Shown here piece after piece: positions 5,929-35,395 of a stretch of 35,395 nt of DNA; the first letter of the stretch is position 1; the number at the start of each line of letters is the position of its first letter. Both the position numbers and the translations under genes were made by a program. This DNA comes from Pseudomonadota bacterium (GTDB lineage: Bacteria > Pseudomonadota > Gammaproteobacteria > Burkholderiales > Rhodocyclaceae). The DNA is taken from positions 1 through 35,395 of the forward strand of contig JAJZSW010000021.1 in the NCBI GenBank assembly GCA_021849505.1, read 5' to 3'. The notes beneath the pieces were generated by a model. That model did no database searches, was not told where the DNA came from, and saw only the letters and a list, made by a program, of their open reading frames with translations.

Positions 5929-7986
5929 ATGCCCGTCAATCCCTCCGCGGCGATTCCCTGGCACCGGTCGATCCGCTTCCGGCTGGCCGCCGCCGCCATC
6001 GTCGTCCAGATCCTGATGCTCGGCCTGCTGCTCGCCAACAGCTACCGGCTGGTCACCGAGGCGCTCGAAACCCAGACCCGGGTACGCCTCGACGCGCTGA
6101 CGCCACTGCTCGACGCCGCACTGGCCGGCCGGGTTTTCCAGCGCGACCACAGCGAGATCGCGGCAATCCTGCACCAACTGGTCGGCGAACGCCCGACCGA
6201 TCTGAAATACATCGTCGTTTTCGACCCGCGGGGTGAAGTCCTCGGCGCGGCCGGCAGCGTCCCCTCCGAGCCACGCAAAGACCTCGACGTGCTGGCGACG
6301 CTCGCCGACCTCACCTACGACACGCAAATCCAGCTCACCCTGCCGGGCAACCTGCAGGTCGGCACGGTGCAATTCGGTCTCTCGCTGGCCGAACTCGCCT
6401 CGCTGCGCGGCAACGTGCTGAGACAAAGCCTCGTCATCGTCGGCATGGCAATCGTGCTTTCCATGCTGCTGCTGATTTCCATCGGTTACCTGCTCACGCG
6501 CAACATCGCCAGCCTGGTGGCCGCCACGCATCGCGTCACGCAGGGCGACTTTTCCACTTCGATCGCCATCCAGGGCAAGGACGAAATCGGCGCGCTGGCC
6601 GACAACTTCAACCAGATGGCAGCTGCGCTCGCCCGGGATGTCGCCGACCGCAACCGTTACGAGCATGAACTGGAGTTCCTGGCGCACCACGATCCGCTGA
6701 CCCAGCTGCCCAACCGCGTACTCCTCGCCGACCGCCTGCAGCAGGCGATCGCCCAGACGCAGCGGGCGGAGTGCCTGCTGGCGATCGCCTACCTCGACCT
6801 CGACGGCTTCAAGGAGATCAACGACAGTCACGACCACAAGACGGGCGATCAACTGCTGGTGATGGTGGCGCAACGCCTCAAGGAACACATCCGCGCCGCC
6901 GATACCGTCTGCCGCCTGGGCGGCGACGAGTTCGTGCTCCTCCTCGGCGACCTCAACGAGATCGGGGAATGCATCCGCACCATCGAGCGCCTGCTCGGCG
7001 CGCTGGCCATGCCCTACCCGCTCGCTCCGCAGCCGCTCCTCATCACTGCCAGCATCGGCCTGACGATCTACCCTTTCGATGATGCCGATGCCGATACCCT
7101 GATGCGCCATGCCGACCAGGCGATGTACATCGCCAAGCAGAGCGGCCGCAATCGCTACCATCTCTTCGATGCCGAGCAGGACCGTCAGGTACAGGCACGG
7201 CACAGCAACCTGGCCCGCCTCGAAGCCGCCCTGCGCGACAACGAGTTCGTGCTCCACTACCAGCCCAAGGTGGACATGCGCAGCGGCAAGGTGGTCGGTG
7301 CCGAGGCCCTGATCCGCTGGCAGCATCCGGAGGAAGGCCTGCTGCCGCCGAGCCGCTTCCTGGCGGAGATAGAGAACAGCGATCTCGCCATCCCGCTGGG
7401 CGAATGGGTGATCGCCACGGCCCTGGCCCAGATGGCACGCTGGCAGGCGGCCGGACTCAAGCTTGCGATCAGCGTCAATATCTCCCCGCGCCACCTGCAA
7501 GTGCGGAACTTTCCGGAGCGTCTGGGCGAACTGCTGCACCAGCATGCCCACCTGCCGCCCGCCTCGCTCGAACTGGAAGTGGTCGAATCGGCCGCCCTCG
7601 AGGACGTGGTGCGCGTCGCGGAAATCATCGATGCCTGCCACGCGCTGGGGGTCGGCTTCGCGCTGGACGACTTCGGCACCGGCTACTCGTCGCTCTCCTA
7701 CTTCAAGCGCCTGCGCATCGATGTGCTCAAGATCGACCAGAGCTTCGTGCGCGACCTGCTGACCGACGACGAGGATCATGCCATCGTCGAAGGCGTGATC
7801 AGCCTGACGCGCACCTTCAAGCGGCAGGTGATCGCGGAAGGGGTCGAAAGCGCCGAGATCGGGGTCGCCCTGCTCCAACTCGGCTGCTCGCTCGCGCAGG
7901 GCTACGGCATCGCCAGGCCGATGCCGGCGGCCGACCTGCCCCACTGGATCGCCCACTGGCAACCCTACCCGCAGTGGCGCAGCTAG
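5929..7986 (+). CDS. Membrane GGDEF-EAL protein with periplasmic sensor and HAMP domain
   Basis: The product is 685 aa. TM1 is about 16-38, followed by a periplasmic region of about 125 residues, TM2 (about 166-190) and a HAMP linker (190-243). The GGDEF domain (about 250-415) has intact GGDEF at 331-335 and the inhibitory I-site RxxD at 322-325, exactly five residues before it. The EAL domain (about 430-675) has E459-A460-L461, N517, DDFGTG (580-585), K601 and E637, so both catalytic centres look competent. It should make and/or degrade cyclic di-GMP at the inner membrane under control of a periplasmic signal. The gene lies 10 bp after a PhnD-like gene, recalling the NspS-MbaA pair of Vibrio cholerae, in which a binding protein controls a GGDEF-EAL receptor. 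The output direction cannot be judged from sequence. Confidence 0.92.
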   Translation: MPVNPSAAIPWHRSIRFRLAAAAIVVQILMLGLLLANSYRLVTEALETQTRVRLDALTPLLDAALAGRVFQRDHSEIAAILHQLVGERPTDLKYIVVFDPRGEVLGAAGSVPSEPRKDLDVLATLADLTYDTQIQLTLPGNLQVGTVQFGLSLAELASLRGNVLRQSLVIVGMAIVLSMLLLISIGYLLTRNIASLVAATHRVTQGDFSTSIAIQGKDEIGALADNFNQMAAALARDVADRNRYEHELEFLAHHDPLTQLPNRVLLADRLQQAIAQTQRAECLLAIAYLDLDGFKEINDSHDHKTGDQLLVMVAQRLKEHIRAADTVCRLGGDEFVLLLGDLNEIGECIRTIERLLGALAMPYPLAPQPLLITASIGLTIYPFDDADADTLMRHADQAMYIAKQSGRNRYHLFDAEQDRQVQARHSNLARLEAALRDNEFVLHYQPKVDMRSGKVVGAEALIRWQHPEEGLLPPSRFLAEIENSDLAIPLGEWVIATALAQMARWQAAGLKLAISVNISPRHLQVRNFPERLGELLHQHAHLPPASLELEVVESAALEDVVRVAEIIDACHALGVGFALDDFGTGYSSLSYFKRLRIDVLKIDQSFVRDLLTDDEDHAIVEGVISLTRTFKRQVIAEGVESAEIGVALLQLGCSLAQGYGIARPMPAADLPHWIAHWQPYPQWRS

Positions 7987-8011
7987 AAAGTCGGCGCTGG
8001 CGGGACGGCAC
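7986..8011 (-). repeat. Dispersed 26-bp repeat, copy A (3' flank of zapE)
   Basis: Read on the minus strand this is GTGCCGTCCCGCC followed by AGCGCCGACTTTC. It fills the whole 24-bp gap between the convergent GGDEF-EAL and zapE genes. Near-identical copies lie at 17143-17168, 31440-31465 and 34738-34763, always in the sense of the neighbouring or host gene. An adjoining CGGCAC/GTGCCG hairpin (8006-8021) has no T-run on either side, so it is at best a weak terminator. Confidence 0.7.
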
Positions 8012-16395: not shown

Positions 16396-17646
16396 TTAAA
16401 CGTCGAGCAGCAGACGGGCCGGGTCTTCCAGCGCTTCCTTCATCGTCACCAGGCCGAGCACCGCCTCGCGGCCGTCGATGATGCGGTGGTCGTAGGACAT
16501 GGCAAGGTAGTTGATCGGGCGGATGACGATCTGGCCGTTCTCGACCACCGGGCGCTCCTTGGTGGCATGGATGCCGAGAATGGCGGACTGCGGCGGGTTG
16601 ATGATCGGCGTCGACAGCATCGACCCGAACACGCCGCCGTTGGAGATGGAGAAGGTGCCGCCGGTCAGCTCTTCGAGCGAGAGCTTGCCATCCTTGGCCT
16701 TCTGGCCGAATTCGGCGATCTTCTTCTCGATCTGGGCCAGCGACAGCTGGTCGGCATCGCGCAGGATCGGCACGACCAGGCCGCGCGGCGAGCCGACGGC
16801 GATGCCGATGTCGAAATAGCCGTGATAGACGATGTCGTTGCCATCCACCGAGGCGTTGATGATGGGGAACTTCTTCAGCGCCGCGACCGCGGCCTTGACG
16901 AAGAAGGACATGAAGCCGAGGCGCACGCCATGCTCCTTCTCGAACTTCTCGGCGTATTTCTTGCGCAGTTCCATCACCGGGGCCATGTTCACCTCGTTGA
17001 AGGTGGTCAGGATGGCGTTGGTGGACTGCGATTGCAGCAGCCGTTCCGCCACGCGGGCGCGCAGGCGCGACATGGGTACGCGCTGCTCGGTGCGTTCGGC
17101 GACGATGGCATCGGCATTGATGACGTTCGGCTGGGGCAGCGCAGAAGTCGGCGCTGACGGGACGGCACCCGGAACGCTGACAGTGGGCGCAGCCGGCTTG
17201 GGCGGAGCCGCAGTGCCGAGTACATCCGCCTTGGTGACGCGACCGCCGGGGCCGGTGCCCTGCACGGCGGCGGCTTCGATGCCTTTCTCGGCGAGCGCCT
17301 TGCGCGCGGCGGGGCCGACGCCCGCAGGCGCTGGAGCGGCCTTCGCTGCCGCCGCTGCAGCTGCCGCGGGGGCGGCCTTGGCGGCGGGCGCCGCTGCGCT
17401 CGCTTGCGCTTCGGTATCGATTCTGGCGATCAGCTCGCCGGAAGCGACCGAATCGCCGTTGCCTTTGAGAACCTCGACGAGCATGCCCGATTCGGGCGCC
17501 GGTAGCTCGAGCACGACCTTGTCGGTCTCGATGTCGATCAGGTTTTCGTCGCGGGTCACGGCATCCCCGACGTTCTTGTGCCAGCTCACCAGGGTCGCTT
17601 CGGCGACGGATTCCGAGAGTTGCGGTACTTTCACTTCGATCAGCAT
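16396..17646 (-). CDS. sucB: Dihydrolipoyllysine succinyltransferase (E2 of 2-oxoglutarate dehydrogenase)
   Basis: The product is 416 aa. A single N-terminal lipoyl domain carries the lipoylated Lys43 in ETDKVVLE. An Ala/Pro-rich linker leads to the E3/E1-binding domain ([13 protein letters not shown] to [11 protein letters not shown]), a second linker follows, and the catalytic domain ends with SYDHRIIDG (His387, Asp391). It transfers the succinyl group from E1 to CoA and forms the core of the complex. The start is the ATG at 17646, with GGAG eight bases upstream; an in-frame GTG at 17655 overlaps that site. The second linker contains a copy of a dispersed 26-bp repeat read in frame as GAVPSAPTS. 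The gene starts 21 bp after sucA ends. Confidence 0.96.
17143..17168 (-). repeat. Dispersed 26-bp repeat, copy B, inside the sucB linker
   Basis: In the sucB sense this reads GTGCCGTCCCGTC followed by AGCGCCGACTTCT. It differs from copy A at one base within the first 23. It encodes part of the flexible linker between the subunit-binding and catalytic domains, where added residues are tolerated. Confidence 0.65.
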
Positions 17647-28830: not shown

Positions 28831-31428
28831 ATGCTCGAAGCCTACCGCGCCCATGTCGCCGAACGTGCCGCCCTCGGCATTCCGCCCCTGCCGCTGACCA
28901 AGCAGCAGACCCAGCAGCTGGTCGAACTGCTGCTGAACCCACCCAAGGGTGAAGAAGCCTTCCTCGTCGACCTGATCACCCATCGCGTACCAGCCGGCGT
29001 GGATGATGCCGCCGAGGTCAAGGCGAAGTTCCTCGCGAAAGTCGGCGCCGGCGAGACGGCATGCCCGCTGATCTCGCGCGCCAAGGCGACCGAACTGCTC
29101 GGCACCATGCTCGGCGGCTACAATGTCAAGCCGCTGATCGACCTGCTCGACGATGCTGAAGTCGGCACCGTCGCTGCCGCTGGCCTGAAAAAAACCCTGC
29201 TGATGTTCGATGCCTTCCACGATGTCGCCGACAAGGCCAAGGCAGGCAGCGCGAATGCCAAGGCCGTGATGCAGTCGTGGGCGGATGCCGAGTGGTTCAC
29301 CGCCCGCCCTGAAGTGCCGCAAGCCCTCAAGGTCACGATCTTCAAGGTCACCGGCGAAACCAACACCGACGACCTGTCACCCGCCCCGGATGCGTGGAGC
29401 CGCCCCGACATTCCGCTGCACGCGCTCGCCATGCTGAAGAACCCGCGTCCCGGCATCGAGGCCGACAAGGCCGGCGAACGCGGCCCGATCAAGCAACTCG
29501 ACGCCCTCAAGGCCAGGGGCAACCTCGTCGCCTATGTAGGCGACGTGGTCGGCACCGGTTCCTCGCGCAAGTCCGCGACCAACTCGGTGCTGTGGTTCAC
29601 CGGCGAAGACATCCCCTTCGTGCCGAACAAGCGTTTCGGCGGCGTCTGCCTCGGCAGCAAGATCGCGCCGATCTTCTACAACACCATGGAAGACGCCGGC
29701 GCGCTGCCGATCGAACTCGACGTCAATCAGATGGCCATGGGCGACGAAGTCGAACTGCGTCCCTACGAAGGCAAGGCGCTGAAGAACGGTGCCGTCATCG
29801 CCGAGTTCAAGGTCAAGTCCGATGTCATCTTCGACGAAGTGCGCGCCGGCGGCCGCATCAACCTGATCATCGGCCGCGGCCTCACTGCCAAGGCGCGCGA
29901 ATTCCTCGGCCTGCCGGTCTCCACCCTCTTCCGCCTGCCCAAGAATCCCGCCGATTCGGGCAAGGGCTTCTCGCTCGCCCAGAAGATGGTTGGCCGCGCC
30001 TGCGGATTGCCGGAACTCAATGGACAACAGCGGGGCATCCGTCCGGGCACCTACTGCGAACCGAAGATGACTTCGGTCGGCTCGCAGGACACCACCGGCC
30101 CGATGACGCGCGACGAACTCAAGGATCTCGCCTGCCTCGGCTTCTCCGCCGACCTCGTCATGCAGTCCTTCTGCCACACCGCCGCCTATCCGAAGCTGGT
30201 CGACGTCAAGACCCACCGCACGCTGCCGAGCTTCATCACCGCGCGCGGCGGCATCTCGCTCAAGCCCGGCGACGGCGTGATCCACTCCTGGCTGAACCGC
30301 TTCCTGCTGCCCGACACGGTCGGCACCGGCGGCGACTCACACACGCGCTTCCCGATCGGCATCTCCTTCCCGGCCGGCTCCGGCCTCGTCGCCTTCGCCG
30401 CCGCCACCGGCGTCATGCCGCTCGACATGCCCGAGTCCGTGCTGGTGCGTTTCAAGGGCACGCTGCAGCCTGGCATCACCCTGCGCGACATGGTCAACGC
30501 AATACCCTACCAAGCGATCAAGCAGGGCCTGCTGACCGTCGAGAAGCAGGGCAAGAAGAACGTCTTCAACGGCCGCATCCTCGAGATCGAGGGCCTCCCC
30601 GACCTCAAGGTCGAACAGGCCTTCGAGTTGACCGACGCCTCCGCCGAACGCTCCGCCGCCGGCTGCTCGGTGCGGCTGAACAAGGAGCCCATCGTCGAGT
30701 ACCTGCGCTCGAACATTACGCTGATGAAGTGGATGATCGCCGAAGGCTACGAGGACAAGCGTACCCTCGCCCGCCGCATCAAGGCCATGGAAGACTGGAT
30801 CGCCAATGGCACCCTGCTCCAGCCCGATGCCGACGCCGAGTACGCCGCGGTGATCGAGATCGACATGAACGAGATCAAGGAACCGCTGCTCGCCTGCCCC
30901 AACGACCCGGACGACATCAAGCCGCTGTCCGCGGTCCAGGGCGACAAGATCGACGAAGTCTTCATCGGCTCGTGCATGACCAACATCGGCCACTTCCGCG
31001 CCGCCGGCAAGATCCTCGACGGCAAGAGCGACATCCCGACGCGCCTGTGGATCGCCCCGCCGACCAAGATGGACGCGATGATGCTCAACGAGGAAGGCTA
31101 CTACTCGGTGCTCGGCAAGTCGGGCGCGCGCATGGAAATGCCCGGCTGCTCGCTGTGCATGGGCAACCAGGCGCAGATCAGGAAGGGCAGCACGGCGGTG
31201 TCGACCTCGACGCGCAACTTCCCCAACCGCCTCGGCATCGACACGCGCGTCTATCTGAGCTCGGCGGAACTCGCCGCGGTGTGCGCGCTGATGGGCAAGC
31301 TCCCGACCGTCGCGGAATACCTGGCGCAGGTAAAGACGCTCGAGTCGAAGTCGACCGACGTCTACCGCTACATGAACTTCGACCAGATTCCCGAGTTCAG
31401 GGAAGTCGCGGATACGGTTTCGGCATAA
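28831..31428 (+). CDS. acnB: Bifunctional aconitate hydratase 2 / 2-methylisocitrate dehydratase
   Basis: The product is 865 aa (E. coli 865). It isomerises citrate to isocitrate and can act in the methylcitrate cycle. The AcnB order is seen: an N-terminal HEAT-like domain (1-160), the swivel domain next (about 165-380), then the three catalytic domains. The [4Fe-4S] ligands are C715 ([10 protein letters not shown]) and C773/C776 (GCSLCMGN), close to C710, C769 and C772 of E. coli. AAGGAA precedes the ATG. The last codons ([18 protein letters not shown]) are repeated twice downstream in degenerate form. Confidence 0.98.
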
Positions 31429-31439
31429 CCGGTATCCAG

Positions 31440-31465
31440 GTGCCGTCCCGCCGGCGCCGACTTTT
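31440..31465 (+). repeat. Dispersed 26-bp repeat, copy C (3' flank of acnB)
   Basis: The sequence is GTGCCGTCCCGCC followed by GGCGCCGACTTTT, 11 bases after the acnB stop. GGTGCC just at its start can pair with GGCGCC inside it, followed by ACTTTT, so this copy may itself fold as a small terminator. Confidence 0.7.
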
Positions 31466-31466
31466 C

Positions 31467-31497
31467 AAGCGGCCCCGCCCGCAAGGCGGGGCCGCTT
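31467..31497 (+). terminator. Terminator hairpin after acnB
   Basis: A perfect 13-bp stem AAGCGGCCCCGCC/GGCGGGGCCGCTT with a 5-base loop is followed by GTCTTTG. The T-run is weak, but the stem is very strong. It lies 38 bases after the acnB stop. Confidence 0.75.
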
Positions 31498-31600
31498 GTC
31501 TTTGTCGTGAGCCGGCCATTGCCTGGGCTTCCATCAACCGCTTTCCCTGAAGGGGCGATAAGATTGGGCTGGTCATCAGAACGGTAGCCGATAATGTGCC

Positions 31601-33454
31601 ATGAGAGATAAGCACTTCTACGACTTCCTGCACCGGCAGATCCCGGTGCTCATCGTTCTGTCGCTTTTCCCTGGACTGGGTTATCTCTTCCTCGGCTGGC
31701 TCAACGGCATCTTCGTTCCGGCCTTCATCTGGTACCTGCTGGTGATCGCGGTTTCGCTGTGGGGTTATCGCCTTTACCGGGGCCTTGACTTCGATACGAT
31801 GAGCGAGGGCCGGCGCGATCGCTGGTATCGGCAGTACTCGTGGTTCTTCTACGCATTTTTCACTTTGTGGACGCTGATCTTCCTGCTCTACGTCGGGCAG
31901 GACGCCTACAAGCTCCACTACATCGCCATCTTCACCGAAATTGGCGCCTCGGTGGTCGCCTCCTCCCTGCTGGCATCCGACCGCCGCCTCTACCGGCCGA
32001 CCATCTTCATCCTGATGGTGCCGCTGATCGTCTACTTCTTCTTGATCGGCGAATGGTATGGCTATGTCCTCACCGCCTTTGCCTGCACCCTGACCTGGGT
32101 ATTGCTCTACGCCGCGCGGAGCAGTCACGACCTGCTGATGAAGGCCTACCACCAGGCCACGCACGACGGCCTCACCTCCCTCTACAACCGGCACTATTTC
32201 GTCGAGCACCTGCAGAAGCGGATGAACTCGCTGGGTGAAAGCAGCGAGTTCTCCTACCTGCTGCTCATCGACCTCGACCACTTCAAGACCGTCAACGACT
32301 CGCTGGGACACGACGTCGGCGATCGACTCCTGCAGGACGTCGTCACGCGGCTACAGCAGCAGTTGCCCGCCGGCGACGTGCTCGCCCGTCTCGGCGGCGA
32401 CGAGTTCATCATCACGGGGGGCGACTTCGGCGACCGGGCAGCCTGCGAGCGCGCCGCCCTGGAACTTGCGGAAAACCTCATCGCCCGGCTCAAGGAGGCC
32501 TATGTCGTCGACAGTCACCATCTGTACATCAGCGCCAGCATCGGCGTGAGCATCATCAGCGGTCGCGGCGCCAACGCCGGCACCTTCATCAAGGAAGCCG
32601 ACATCGCGATGTACGAGGTCAAGGCGAAGGGGCGCGACGGCGTCTTCATGTTCAACGAGGAGATGTCCGCCCGCGTCGAGAGCCGGCTGGAAACCGAACG
32701 CCTGCTCCACTTCGCCCTCGGCAACGATGAAATCACCCTGCACTTCCAGCCGCAGCTGGACCGCACCGGGCGTATCGTCGGCGTCGAAGCGCTGGCACGC
32801 TGGAACAATGCGACGCTTGGTGCGGTTTCGCCCGCGCAATTCATCCCCATCGCCGAGCAGACGGGCCTGATCGTCGAACTCGGAAACCACATCCTCGAGA
32901 CCGGGTTCAGGACGTTGCGCGCATGGCACGACGCGGGCATCGAACTGGACCAGTTCTCGATCAACATCAGCATGCGGCAGTTCACCCATCTCGATTTCGA
33001 GGCACAGGTCGCGGCACTGGCCCAGCGCTATCTCGACGCCGGATTGCGTCGCAAGTTGACCTTCGAGATTACCGAATCGATCGTGGCCGAGGACATCAAT
33101 CGCGTCATCCTGGTGATGAACCGCTTGAAAGCAGTGGGCATCCGTTTCTCCATGGACGATTTCGGTACCGGCTATTCGTCCCTCAGCTACCTGAACCGGC
33201 TCCCGCTCGACGAGCTCAAGATCGATCGTGCCTTCGTCTCCGCGCTCGGCCACCAAGAAGAGGGGCGGACGATGGTCGCCACCATTGTCAATATGTCAAC
33301 CGCTCTCAAGCTGAAGATCGTCGCCGAAGGCGTGGAAACCGCCGAGCAGTTCGACTTCCTAGTCGCGCATGGCTGCCAGGTTTTCCAGGGCTACTACTTC
33401 TCGCAGCCGCTGACGAGCGAGCAATTCCTCACCTACTACCGCCAGCGGCAATGA
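31601..33454 (+). CDS. Membrane GGDEF-EAL protein with a multi-helix N-terminal domain
   Basis: The product is 617 aa. Residues 1-172 hold about six hydrophobic helices (near 14-34, 38-58, 81-98, 107-124, 133-150 and 152-171), a membrane sensor of MASE-like type without large loops. The GGDEF domain has GGDEF at 265-269, but the I-site position reads PAGD (256-259), so feedback inhibition through Arg is absent. The EAL domain has E396-A397-L398, NIS (454-456), DDFGTG (519-524) and K540, and looks active. It probably controls local cyclic di-GMP at the membrane. There is no ribosome site before the ATG. It lies between two copies of the acnB tail and ends with an ATGA overlap onto a small tail-like frame. 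Confidence 0.9.
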   Translation: MRDKHFYDFLHRQIPVLIVLSLFPGLGYLFLGWLNGIFVPAFIWYLLVIAVSLWGYRLYRGLDFDTMSEGRRDRWYRQYSWFFYAFFTLWTLIFLLYVGQDAYKLHYIAIFTEIGASVVASSLLASDRRLYRPTIFILMVPLIVYFFLIGEWYGYVLTAFACTLTWVLLYAARSSHDLLMKAYHQATHDGLTSLYNRHYFVEHLQKRMNSLGESSEFSYLLLIDLDHFKTVNDSLGHDVGDRLLQDVVTRLQQQLPAGDVLARLGGDEFIITGGDFGDRAACERAALELAENLIARLKEAYVVDSHHLYISASIGVSIISGRGANAGTFIKEADIAMYEVKAKGRDGVFMFNEEMSARVESRLETERLLHFALGNDEITLHFQPQLDRTGRIVGVEALARWNNATLGAVSPAQFIPIAEQTGLIVELGNHILETGFRTLRAWHDAGIELDQFSINISMRQFTHLDFEAQVAALAQRYLDAGLRRKLTFEITESIVAEDINRVILVMNRLKAVGIRFSMDDFGTGYSSLSYLNRLPLDELKIDRAFVSALGHQEEGRTMVATIVNMSTALKLKIVAEGVETAEQFDFLVAHGCQVFQGYYFSQPLTSEQFLTYYRQRQ

Positions 33455-33561
33455 GCAGCCGCTACATGAACCTCAACCAGATCGGCGCGTTTCAAGAGGT
33501 GGCGGATACAGGTGTGTTGCTTTTTACCCAGGTAGGCGGCGTGCCCAAGACTGCCTCATGA
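33451..33561 (+). pseudogene. acnB 3'-tail-like fragment (copy 2), 36-codon open frame
   Basis: The ATG overlaps the stop of the GGDEF-EAL gene (ATGA). The 36-residue frame contains SRYMNLNQIGAFQEVADT, which matches the AcnB C-terminus [18 protein letters not shown] at most positions. Bases 33459-33514 align with 31365 onward, but diverge more than copy 3. The rest (GVLLFTQV) recalls the longer tail of enterobacterial AcnB. It is more likely a remnant of an acnB-related 3' end than a working gene. It overlaps the end of the convergent PEP-CTERM gene by 6 bases. Confidence 0.6.
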
Positions 33562-34437
33562 AGTGCTCGCCCCACCTTTCCCGCAAGGTCGCTTCAGCGA
33601 GGTAGCGCGCAAGGCTGCCAAGGCAGCCAACACCAGGAACACAGTCTCGGGCTCGGGAATACGCCGCAGCGTTGCGAAATAGTCCACGGCGATTCCGCCC
33701 GGTGCATAGTCCTTGAGGAACCACTGGGTGACGCCGGATGTATCGTATGCGTAGGTATTGAGATCCTTGCCCGAGACATCGCGATCCGAGTCGGTGATCT
33801 GGAGGTTGCCCTGGTCGTCATAGCCCTGGAAGGTCACCGCATGGTAGATGTCACTGCTGTGGATGACGATCCCGACTTCGTAGGCGCTGGCGAGGAAGTC
33901 GGCCGCTTCGTCGAAGGGCGCGCTCGGCCAGGCTTGTGCCGTGGTGCCATCCCGGTTCGTACCGTAATAGACCCCGTAGTACAACACCTCGAACGTTGCT
34001 TCGTGGGGCCTGTTTCCCAAGTACCAGTTCAAGGCCTCGTGCTGCCACCCGCCGTATTGCCAGCCGCCCGCGTGGTACGGCATTGTCATATTGTAGACCA
34101 TGTCCCAGTAGATGTTCTGCGCTTGGCCACCCGCCAATCCGGCGCTGGCCAGCATGTTTGCCGCAGAGGCGATCCAGCAGGACAAATCCTTGGCGGAACG
34201 GGGTTTCGCCCAACTGGCGACGATAGCGTCGGCGAAGTTTTCGGTCTTGTCCCAATGACCATCGTCATCTGTATCGTCCCAATAATTCCAGCCCCAGTCG
34301 CCATACGTGTTCAATTTGTCGGCATCCGTCCAAGTGGGATTCAAGTAGTTGCCGACGAGGGGCACGGCCGATACAGGAGTCATCCAGGCCATCAAAGCCC
34401 CAAGTAGCGCACCGGCAAGTTTGGAATTTGCGCGCAT
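33556..34437 (-). CDS. Exported IdeS-like cysteine peptidase with PEP-CTERM anchor
   Basis: The product is 293 aa. A signal peptide (1-24, ending VSA) is followed by a Trp/Asp-rich stretch with DTDDDGHWD. Cys87 lies in DLSCWIASAANML, His199 in YHAVTFQGYD and Asp216/Asp218 in ITDSDRD. This order and these motifs resemble the IdeS/Mac cysteine endopeptidases (recalled: Cys in CWA-x-x-x-SNML, His in H-x-(L/V)-x-(V/L)-WG, Asp in TDSD). The C-terminus is a PEP-CTERM signal: PEPETVFL (261-268), a hydrophobic helix and the basic cluster LKR, the substrate of exosortase. It is thus probably surface-attached or released with exopolysaccharide. AGGAG seven bases before the ATG fixes the start. The gene is visibly less GC-rich than its neighbours. 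Confidence 0.75.
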   Translation of the reverse strand: MRANSKLAGALLGALMAWMTPVSAVPLVGNYLNPTWTDADKLNTYGDWGWNYWDDTDDDGHWDKTENFADAIVASWAKPRSAKDLSCWIASAANMLASAGLAGGQAQNIYWDMVYNMTMPYHAGGWQYGGWQHEALNWYLGNRPHEATFEVLYYGVYYGTNRDGTTAQAWPSAPFDEAADFLASAYEVGIVIHSSDIYHAVTFQGYDDQGNLQITDSDRDVSGKDLNTYAYDTSGVTQWFLKDYAPGGIAVDYFATLRRIPEPETVFLVLAALAALRATSLKRPCGKGGASTS

Positions 34438-34471
34438 GACTGGACTCCTATTTGACAGGATGGGAATCTCA

Positions 34472-34487
34472 AGCATCACGCGTACCA
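34472..34487 (-). promoter_or_regulatory. Sigma-54 promoter of the PEP-CTERM gene
   Basis: The minus strand reads TGGTACGCGTGATGCT, which keeps the invariant GG-N10-GC and differs from TGGCACG-N4-TTGC(A/T) at two bases. It lies 35 bp before the ATG, leaving a leader of about 24 bases. PEP-CTERM genes of floc-forming betaproteobacteria are known to depend on sigma-54 with the PrsK/PrsR system. Confidence 0.65.
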
Positions 34488-34660
34488 AAGTCATCGACCC
34501 GACCCGTACGCTACGAACAATGCTCACGGATACAAACGGTTATCGGGCACGGGCGCAGCGTCAGCAACCCGTTGCGGGTTCTAGCCCCGGGTGGACGCGG
34601 GTCAGATGTAATAAAACCCGACATGACATAATGGGTTTCGCGGGCCCGCGACGGCGATCT
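34488..34660. other. Non-coding stretch with palindromes upstream of the PEP-CTERM gene
   Basis: No gene is seen here. It contains a 6-bp stem AACCCG/CGGGTT with a TTG loop (34566-34580), a wider AAACCC/GGGTTT pair (34614-34638) and a perfect 12-base palindrome CGCGGGCCCGCG (34639-34650). They lie 80-180 bp upstream of the sigma-54 site, where enhancer-binding proteins act, or they may be leftovers of a recombination end. Confidence 0.4.
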
Positions 34661-34737
34661 ACGCTAAATGAACTTCGACCAGATTCCCGTTTCCAAAAGG
34701 AAGTCGTGGATACGGTTGCGGCGTAATCGGCATGGCG

Positions 34738-34763
34738 GTGCCGTCCCGCCAGGGCCGACTTTT
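34738..34763 (+). repeat. Dispersed 26-bp repeat, copy D
   Basis: The sequence is GTGCCGTCCCGCC followed by AGGGCCGACTTTT, 11 bases after the stop of the displaced acnB tail. It differs from copy C at two positions. Confidence 0.7.
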
Positions 34764-34764
34764 C

Positions 34765-34795
34765 AAACGGCCCCGCCCCAAGGCGGGGTCGTTTT
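34765..34795 (+). terminator. Terminator hairpin beside the MetE-like gene
   Basis: A stem of 13 pairs, AAACGGCCCCGCC/GGCGGGGTCGTTT with one G-T pair and a 4-base CCAA loop, is followed by T. It mirrors the acnB terminator. On the minus strand it also lies 15 bases after the MetE-like stop, but no T-run follows there. Confidence 0.65.
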
Positions 34796-34809
34796 CCTGG
34801 CTGAGTCGG

Positions 34810-35395
34810 TCAGGCCCAGCCGAGTTCGGCGCGCACGATGGCGGCGCCCGCCGCGAGCGCTTGCAGCTTGCCACGGGCGACGGCGCGCGGCAGCGGCACC
34901 ATGCCGCAGTTGGTGCAGCCGATCAGGCGGTGCGGCTTCACCCACTGCAGAGCCTTGCGCAGCGTGGCCGCGACTTCCTCGGGCGTTTCGATGCGGTTCG
35001 TGGCGACGTCGATGGCGCCAACCATGACCTCCTTGCCGTCGAGCAGCCCGATCAGTTCCATCGGCACGTGCGAGTTCTGGCATTCGAGGCTGACCTGGTT
35101 GATGGCGCTCTTGGCGAGCAGCGGAAAAGTTTGCTCGTACTGCCGCCATTCGGCGCCGAGTCCTTCCTTCCACTTGATGTTGGCCTCGATGCCGTAGCCG
35201 TAGCAGATGTGCGTGGCGGTCTTGCAGGGCAGGTTCGCTGCCGCGCGCTCGAGCGTCTTGATGCCCCAGTCGCGCACTTCGTCGAAGAAGACGTTAAAGG
35301 CCGGCTCGTCGAACTGCACGATATCGACGCCGGCCGCCGCCAGTTCATGGGCTTCCTGATTGAGGATCTCGGCAAAGGCCCAGGCCAGCTTCTCG
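34810..35395 (-). CDS. MetE-like methionine synthase (catalytic-domain type), C-terminal part
   Basis: The last 194 codons are present; the 5' end is beyond the right edge. The sequence has FDEPAFNVFF and the zinc-site pattern of cobalamin-independent methionine synthase: His and Cys in THICYGYG, Glu in QVSLECQNSH and Cys in IGCTNCGMVPLP. The spacing and short C-terminus fit stand-alone MetE catalytic-domain proteins ('core-MetE', which include MesD-like enzymes) that methylate homocysteine with a donor other than the usual triglutamyl folate. Full-length MetE cannot be excluded, as the N-terminus is not seen. It is convergent with the displaced acnB tail. Confidence 0.75.
   Translation of the reverse strand, partial: EKLAWAFAEILNQEAHELAAAGVDIVQFDEPAFNVFFDEVRDWGIKTLERAAANLPCKTATHICYGYGIEANIKWKEGLGAEWRQYEQTFPLLAKSAINQVSLECQNSHVPMELIGLLDGKEVMVGAIDVATNRIETPEEVAATLRKALQWVKPHRLIGCTNCGMVPLPRAVARGKLQALAAGAAIVRAELGWA

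Follow-up and report, generated by a model that had tools for sequence, protein, structure and literature searches.

The 3' end of acnB as a probable attachment site for mobile DNA in the Rhodocyclaceae: comparative sequence evidence

Results

Organization of the acnB locus

The window, that is, the whole stretch of 35,395 nucleotides analysed here, carries near its right end an intact acnB gene (28831..31428, forward strand) encoding a protein of 865 amino acids, the 3' end of which is the proposed attachment site. The last part of the gene, tail copy 1 (31366..31428), runs from the core CGCTACATGAACTT through the acnB stop codon. It is followed on the same strand by a 26-bp dispersed motif (31440..31465) and a putative hairpin-type terminator (31466..31510). 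Next comes a first cargo gene (cargo 1, 31601..33454, forward strand), whose 617-aa product matches the Pfam GGDEF and EAL domains, as the preliminary description of this DNA had proposed. Its stop codon lies only 5 bases ahead of a second copy of the core. This middle tail (copy 2, 33459..33514, forward strand) comprises the core and about 50 further bases of the coding part only; stop codon, motif and terminator are all absent. A second cargo gene (cargo 2, 33556..34527, reverse strand) potentially encodes a secreted-type protein of 323 amino acids. The name "IdeS-like" given to it earlier was not borne out, the best Pfam match being Peptidase_C39_2 (E 0.058), followed by a weak PEP-CTERM match (E 0.38), and no sequence relative was found in the PDB at E<=1. 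A single-sequence structure model of this protein was useless (mean pLDDT 37.7). Tail copy 3 (34662..34726, forward strand), interpreted below as the displaced original end of acnB, is frame-damaged and has its stop codon at 34724-34726. It is also followed by the 26-bp motif (34738..34763) and a putative hairpin-type terminator (34764..34800), both on the forward strand. The window ends in a presumed metE-like gene (34810..35395, reverse strand), truncated by the contig end and 95% identical at the protein level to its counterpart in G004, a member of the same genus.

When the window was compared with itself, only the tails appeared as repeats. Copy 1 (31361-31497) and copy 3 (34658-34794) are 84% identical over 139 aligned columns (E 5e-36), the match spanning the stop codon, the dispersed motif and the hairpin; this gapped alignment puts the left edge of copy 3 about 4 bases further left. 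The middle tail is more diverged, with 39 of 51 positions identical between 31365-31415 and 33459-33509 (E 5e-5). In 300 dinucleotide shuffles for each copy, the best chance match was 29/51 for the middle tail, none reaching 39, and 40/80 for the metE-side copy, against 69 observed. Both the recurrence of the acnB tail beside the metE-like gene and the third tail at 33459, noticed earlier by inspection, thus stand well above chance. Within its own genome, matches to the coding part of the tail were confined to this contig (40 scored candidates; 478 at first look). Relatives of acnB were matched in all 61 genomes searched, partial and paralogue matches included.

The 26-bp repeat had been described as part of the duplicated segment. 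It is indeed present after copies 1 and 3, but it also matched 38 other places in the same genome (among 40 scored candidates) and is therefore a dispersed motif, whose presence alone does not indicate duplication. Its sequence, GCCGTCCCGCCAGCGCCGACTT(TT), is non-palindromic and occurs 436 times in this genome with at most 2 mismatches. Within the window it is found at 31440-31465, 34738-34763 and 2681-2702 on the forward strand and at 7986-8011, 17143-17168 and 29037-29062 on the reverse strand. Counts ranged from 123 to 623 in 18 of 19 members of the genus, the exception being G006 with none, and reached 359 in G019 and 583 in G026; the other 40 genomes had 0 to 4 copies, and the reversed control gave 0 in all 61. 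Among 42 copies in 209 kb of loci from the genus, 17 lie within long reading frames, on both strands. From these sequence properties the motif looks like a DNA uptake sequence; no such sequence for this bacterial group was found in the literature searched.

The uninterrupted acnB-metE junction and its surroundings

In G004, the metE-like gene directly follows acnB, across a gap of 81 bp that holds the same motif and a hairpin. In the window, 83 bp separate the stop codon of copy 3 from the end of metE. Since this gap matches the uninterrupted one of G004, copy 3 marks the former end of acnB, and the interval between copies 1 and 3 has been inserted. A relative with a single tail and no cargo, which the preliminary description had suggested looking for, thus exists. 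Among the loci compared, the adjacency of acnB and metE was seen only in G004 and the window.

Fifteen acnB loci were compared, 13 from the window's genus and 2 from other genera. Every locus (15/15) had kept one or both of the two upstream neighbour genes, a gene that we take to be citE-like being present in 14 and one that is presumably DUF3617-like in 11. Downstream of acnB, most genes were unique to one locus or common to two or three, as judged from mechanical reading frames and some short contigs. The 3' end of acnB is the border where variability in gene content begins. The acnB genes of the window and G018 are about 95% identical, but only 73-88% so in their final 180 bases; such profiles were set aside as a weak indication of end replacement, because most pairs within the genus drop there.

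Repeated acnB cores in the family

A 24-base core region (at most 3 mismatches) was matched in 337 of 395 genomes of the family, its reversed control giving one match each in two of the 395. Two or more same-strand copies within 41 kb on one contig were found in at least 12 of the 395 (G000, the window's own genome, and G015, G120, G402, G365, G345, G405, G181, G206, G303, G284 and G084), a lower bound given that the 24-base pattern misses diverged tails. These close copies are 1.0 to 40 kb apart. Together with the conserved upstream and variable downstream genes, they bear out the earlier suggestion that the site is a hot spot. Nineteen multi-copy genomes were followed up, and 9 of them, in which the copies were widely separated or did not share a contig, were excluded from the close pairs; G371 is one of the nine, yet is counted below through its integrase. 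The close pairs likewise leave out five genomes (G082, G167, G188, G215 and G325) in which a single forward match was accompanied by a single reverse one.

Other remains of acnB were met, among others in G012, G013 and G010 of the window's genus. In G012 (L043, about 600-1325) and G013 (L054, 202-1046), only the last acnB codons, the stop codon and the motif remain, behind a small gene common to both; G013 also retains the terminator (91% over 91 bp). In G015 (L100, 481-1000), a piece of acnB that has suffered an internal deletion adjoins a GGDEF-EAL relative; behind it come the motif and sequence that recurs, at 85% over 229 bp, after the other displaced tail of that genome. The acnB of G010 (L042, 548-690) ends in an element-type C-terminus followed by arm-like remnants, a hairpin and then an opposite-strand GGDEF-EAL relative; no second acnB tail was found there, and its end is perhaps the scar of a lost element. 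Some genomes carry long second pieces of acnB; that of G405, for example, has a reading frame of 564 aa.

A clade of tyrosine integrases beside the acnB tails

A Pfam search for integrases in 13 genomes found, among the matches listed, tyrosine recombinases beside the tails of G345, where the gene sits inside the 40-kb interval between tails, and of G371, whose contig belongs to Thauera sp. 28. The two proteins are 60% identical. With the G371 integrase as query, 8 of the 395 family genomes were matched at E<=1e-60. Six of these, the query among them, form a clade of proteins of 317-322 aa; the other five share 58-61% identity with the query, and the lowest pair is at 57%. An acnB-tail repeat lies to the right of the integrase gene in 6/6 clade genomes, at about 60 bp in G168, G149, G184 and G026, 3.6 kb in G371 and 22 kb in G345; the acnB genes of G371, G184 and G026 lie on a separate contig. 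Adding the five clade genomes other than G345, which is in both lists, to the 12 with close copies gives 17 of 395 family genomes with a displaced tail bearing the core.

The two integrases outside the clade (42% and 38%) have no core on their own strand within the fetched stretch. The window's genome has no clade integrase at E<=1e-60, and a tblastn search of the window with 12 integrases gave chance-level matches only (best E 0.14); for this clade, the earlier remark that no integrase is present therefore holds. No relative was found on plasmids at E<=1e-40, and the 48 relatives in phage records were all below 60% identity, the best at 39%. Among 399 genomes of the order, a search at E<=1e-75 gave one 42% relative (G470), with no acnB core nearby. 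It lies directly before the start of a gene that we take to be mutS-like (L102, 1501-2700), and a relative of about 40% identity in G405 (contig C2) lies before a presumably arsC-like start. Judging by these positions, several housekeeping genes seem to serve as sites for integrases of the wider family.

Attachment sites and a phage attP

On the attR sides of the six clade elements, the core is preceded by TCTTAGAC or TCTTAGGC repeats, and these sides end in an A/T-rich stretch. To the right of the acnB stop codon, GTCTAAGA is found in G345 and G371 and close variants of it in G168 and G149, with a hairpin following; no arm of this type was visible there in G026. The identity between attL and attR is only 14 bases long in G168 and G026, which would therefore place the crossover within CGCTACATGAACTT.

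The phage contig IMGVR_UViG_3300001605_000906 encodes an integrase 64% identical to that of G371. In one piece it carries a single core with arms on both sides, a complete acnB-like C-terminus, a stop codon, an arm and a hairpin, all lying between a helicase gene and tail-protein genes. By its sequence, this is an attP that brings along both a terminator and a replacement end for acnB. It was the one attP among three integrase loci in IMG/VR, the other contigs stopping at the integrase stop codon or lacking a core within 3 kb. An exact search of IMG/VR for the acnB core had given 0 matches because the phage copies differ in sequence; the search by integrase did find them.

Taken together, the integrase clade, the attP, the attL and attR sites, the islands and the insert-free relative G004 make a well supported case that the 3' end of acnB acts as an attachment site in this family. 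The suggestion that elements enter there and bring a replacement end is thus upheld at the level of the family.

Cargo at the acnB end

Defence-type, toxin-antitoxin, phage or mobilization genes were found in or at the element in 8 of 16 other genomes with displaced tails (G120, G181 and G371 lying outside the scan). The 40-kb element of G345 encodes a DNA methyltransferase and an MzaC-like helicase, gave further hits with defence models, and resembles a defence island. The 14-kb element of G168 has genes for a TrwC relaxase, a TrwB-type coupling protein and type I restriction, and is likely mobilizable. Further products are a replication-initiator match and a PIN protein (G149), a phage polymerase and helicase (G184), a partial match to TmtA models as well as a DUF3368 protein (G405), a ParE toxin (G206), a PIN protein (G284), an HD-domain protein (G015) and peptidase and cell-wall-hydrolase domains (G402). 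Scanning the cargo of G365 and G084 gave no Pfam match. In G303 (L069, 666-8947), three acnB tails stand in a row; the first interval contains SIR2-like and ATPase genes, and the second a complete HEC-01A/B candidate defence pair.

Relatives of cargo 1 (81-85%) were found in 4 of 36 other genomes searched. One adjoins acnB on the opposite strand (G010), one lies 6.2 kb downstream of it (G008), where the next gene is 67% identical to the HD cargo gene of G015, and one adjoins the decayed acnB fragment of G015; the fourth, in another family (G050), has no core nearby. For cargo 2, no relative was found at E<=1e-12 in 296 other family genomes. Of the idea that the site gathers c-di-GMP and surface genes, the recurrence of c-di-GMP genes in the window's genus stands, but the cargo of the family is wider.

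Left edges of the displaced tails

By one common rule, the displaced copies of the window extend 1 and 0 bases to the left of the core, and those of G015 and G120 extend 2 each; the gapped alignment, which carries copy 3 about 4 bases further, counts against so close an agreement. The integrase elements give 0 in G345, G371, G168 and G149 and 5 in G026 (G184 not included). Nine displaced copies in eight other genomes reach 19 to 655 bases left of the core: G181 (19), G303 copy 3 (21), G402 (66), G206 (180), G284 (197), G365 (256), G084 (258), G303 copy 2 (263) and G405 (655). These far-left copies, with the short ends of G012 and G013 and the deleted fragment of G015, indicate that another process also acts here.

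The window shares with the clade elements its left edge at CGCTACATGAACTT and the arrangement of a replacement end upstream and a displaced end downstream. It has no integrase gene, and no exact arm octamer (TCTTAGAC or GTCTAAGA) was found between 31301 and 34900, exact matches only being sought. The stop codon of the GGDEF-EAL gene, 5 bases from core copy 2, leaves no room for arms there, and the 3' sequence shared by copies 1 and 3 does not resemble what the integrase elements have at attL.

Discussion

The following model is proposed. The last 20 or so codons of acnB would be the attB of this bacterial family. Tyrosine integrases of one clade, encoded by a phage and by small phage-like elements as well as by a mobilizable element and a defence-type island, would recombine attP with acnB inside CGCTACATGAACTT. 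The attP would supply a new acnB C-terminus, stop codon and terminator, so that acnB stays whole while its former end is displaced to the downstream side. In the window, at least two insertions may have taken place: copy 3, beside metE, would be the original end, copy 2 the border of two inserts and copy 1 the end that acnB now uses, the inserts having been reduced to one cargo gene each and any integrase having been lost. Site-specific insertion followed by decay is the best account of the window, with a probability of roughly 0.55. The clade integrases presumably catalyze insertion in the family, and the inserts of the window may have arrived by that route before decaying. For the window itself, the one feature pointing to this route is the left edge matching that of the integrase elements; the missing integrase and exact arms and the chromosomal look of the motif and terminator at copies 1 and 3 speak against entry of this kind.

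These last features fit another origin, less probable but the main and a serious rival, and one that the preliminary description had itself named as an alternative, namely that DNA from a related strain, comprising an acnB 3' end and a neighbouring gene, recombined homologously into acnB and displaced the resident end. Transformation, transduction or a single crossover of a circle could have brought it in, with no site-specific enzyme acting on the window. The displaced fragments with 19-655 extra bases in eight other genomes are what such imports could leave, and the deleted fragment next to the GGDEF-EAL relative in G015, the short ends of G012 and G013, the GGDEF-EAL relatives near acnB in G008 and G010 and the resemblance of the dispersed motif to an uptake sequence point the same way. 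However, the copies of the window, G015 and G120 start at most 2 bases from the edge of the integrase elements, which arbitrary joints would not favour.

Serial duplication of acnB followed by deletion, with no foreign DNA, could be imagined from the long second acnB pieces elsewhere, such as that of G405, but is very improbable, since the cargo was not copied from neighbouring genes and G004 has acnB-metE without it. An assembly error or chimera, conceivable in a genome of 161 contigs where the window is one whole contig, can practically be dismissed, as the tail copies are diverged rather than identical and similar far above shuffles, and like structures occur in the few-contig genomes G365 (1), G168 (2) and G405 (4).

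More speculatively, and with little weight given to it, the acnB 3' end might be a platform for cassettes, in which one- or two-gene units are stacked, each bounded by a tail, and acnB-specific integrases encoded by phages and islands would act in trans to move them. Such units, equally conjectural, would include c-di-GMP enzymes, defence pairs such as HEC-01 and toxin-antitoxin genes.

Known systems offer partial parallels to site-specific insertion at acnB. In E. coli, phage 21 enters at the 3' end of icd. Prophage e14 also inserts at the icd 3' end, where it supplies the last codons and leaves a duplicate end at its far side (PMC6379469). As there, the 3' end of a citric-acid-cycle gene would be the attachment site, with codons supplied by the element and a duplicate end left behind. 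An attP encoding the gene end together with a tyrosine integrase, as in elements of the e14-icd kind, was found in relatives and not in the window; the gene and the bacterial family also differ, as does the window's stack of gene ends, which lacks an integrase and holds a single cargo gene per interval. Minimal mobile elements of Neisseria are strain-specific whole-gene cassettes located at one place between two conserved genes, with no integrase (PMC3898611). They resemble the acnB locus in placing differing whole-gene cassettes at one position without an integrase, whereas the acnB site is conserved on its left, metE being shared only with G004 among the loci compared, and partial gene ends remain as repeats. 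In integron cassette arrays, the repeated site is attC. One- or two-gene units between repeated sites, such as the HEC-01A/B pair between two tails in G303, recall these arrays, but the repeat here is the coding end of acnB instead of attC, and the cargo lies in both orientations.

The acnB gene serves as a phylogeny or typing gene (PMC4235733, PMC5385486, PMC10107160), and no report of it as an attachment site was found in the literature searched, a search that lay mostly outside subscription journals. It thus appears to be an unreported chromosomal attachment site, a gene of central metabolism whose C-terminus would be swapped by mobile DNA, identified here together with the attP and the clade of integrases that act at this site. 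Variation in the acnB C-terminus may be partly explained by such swapped ends. The acnB attB and attP may also provide a site pair for integration tools. For this family, Thauera included, the site offers a fixed address at which to seek defence systems and phage cargo, and the displaced tails may be read as scars of past insertions.
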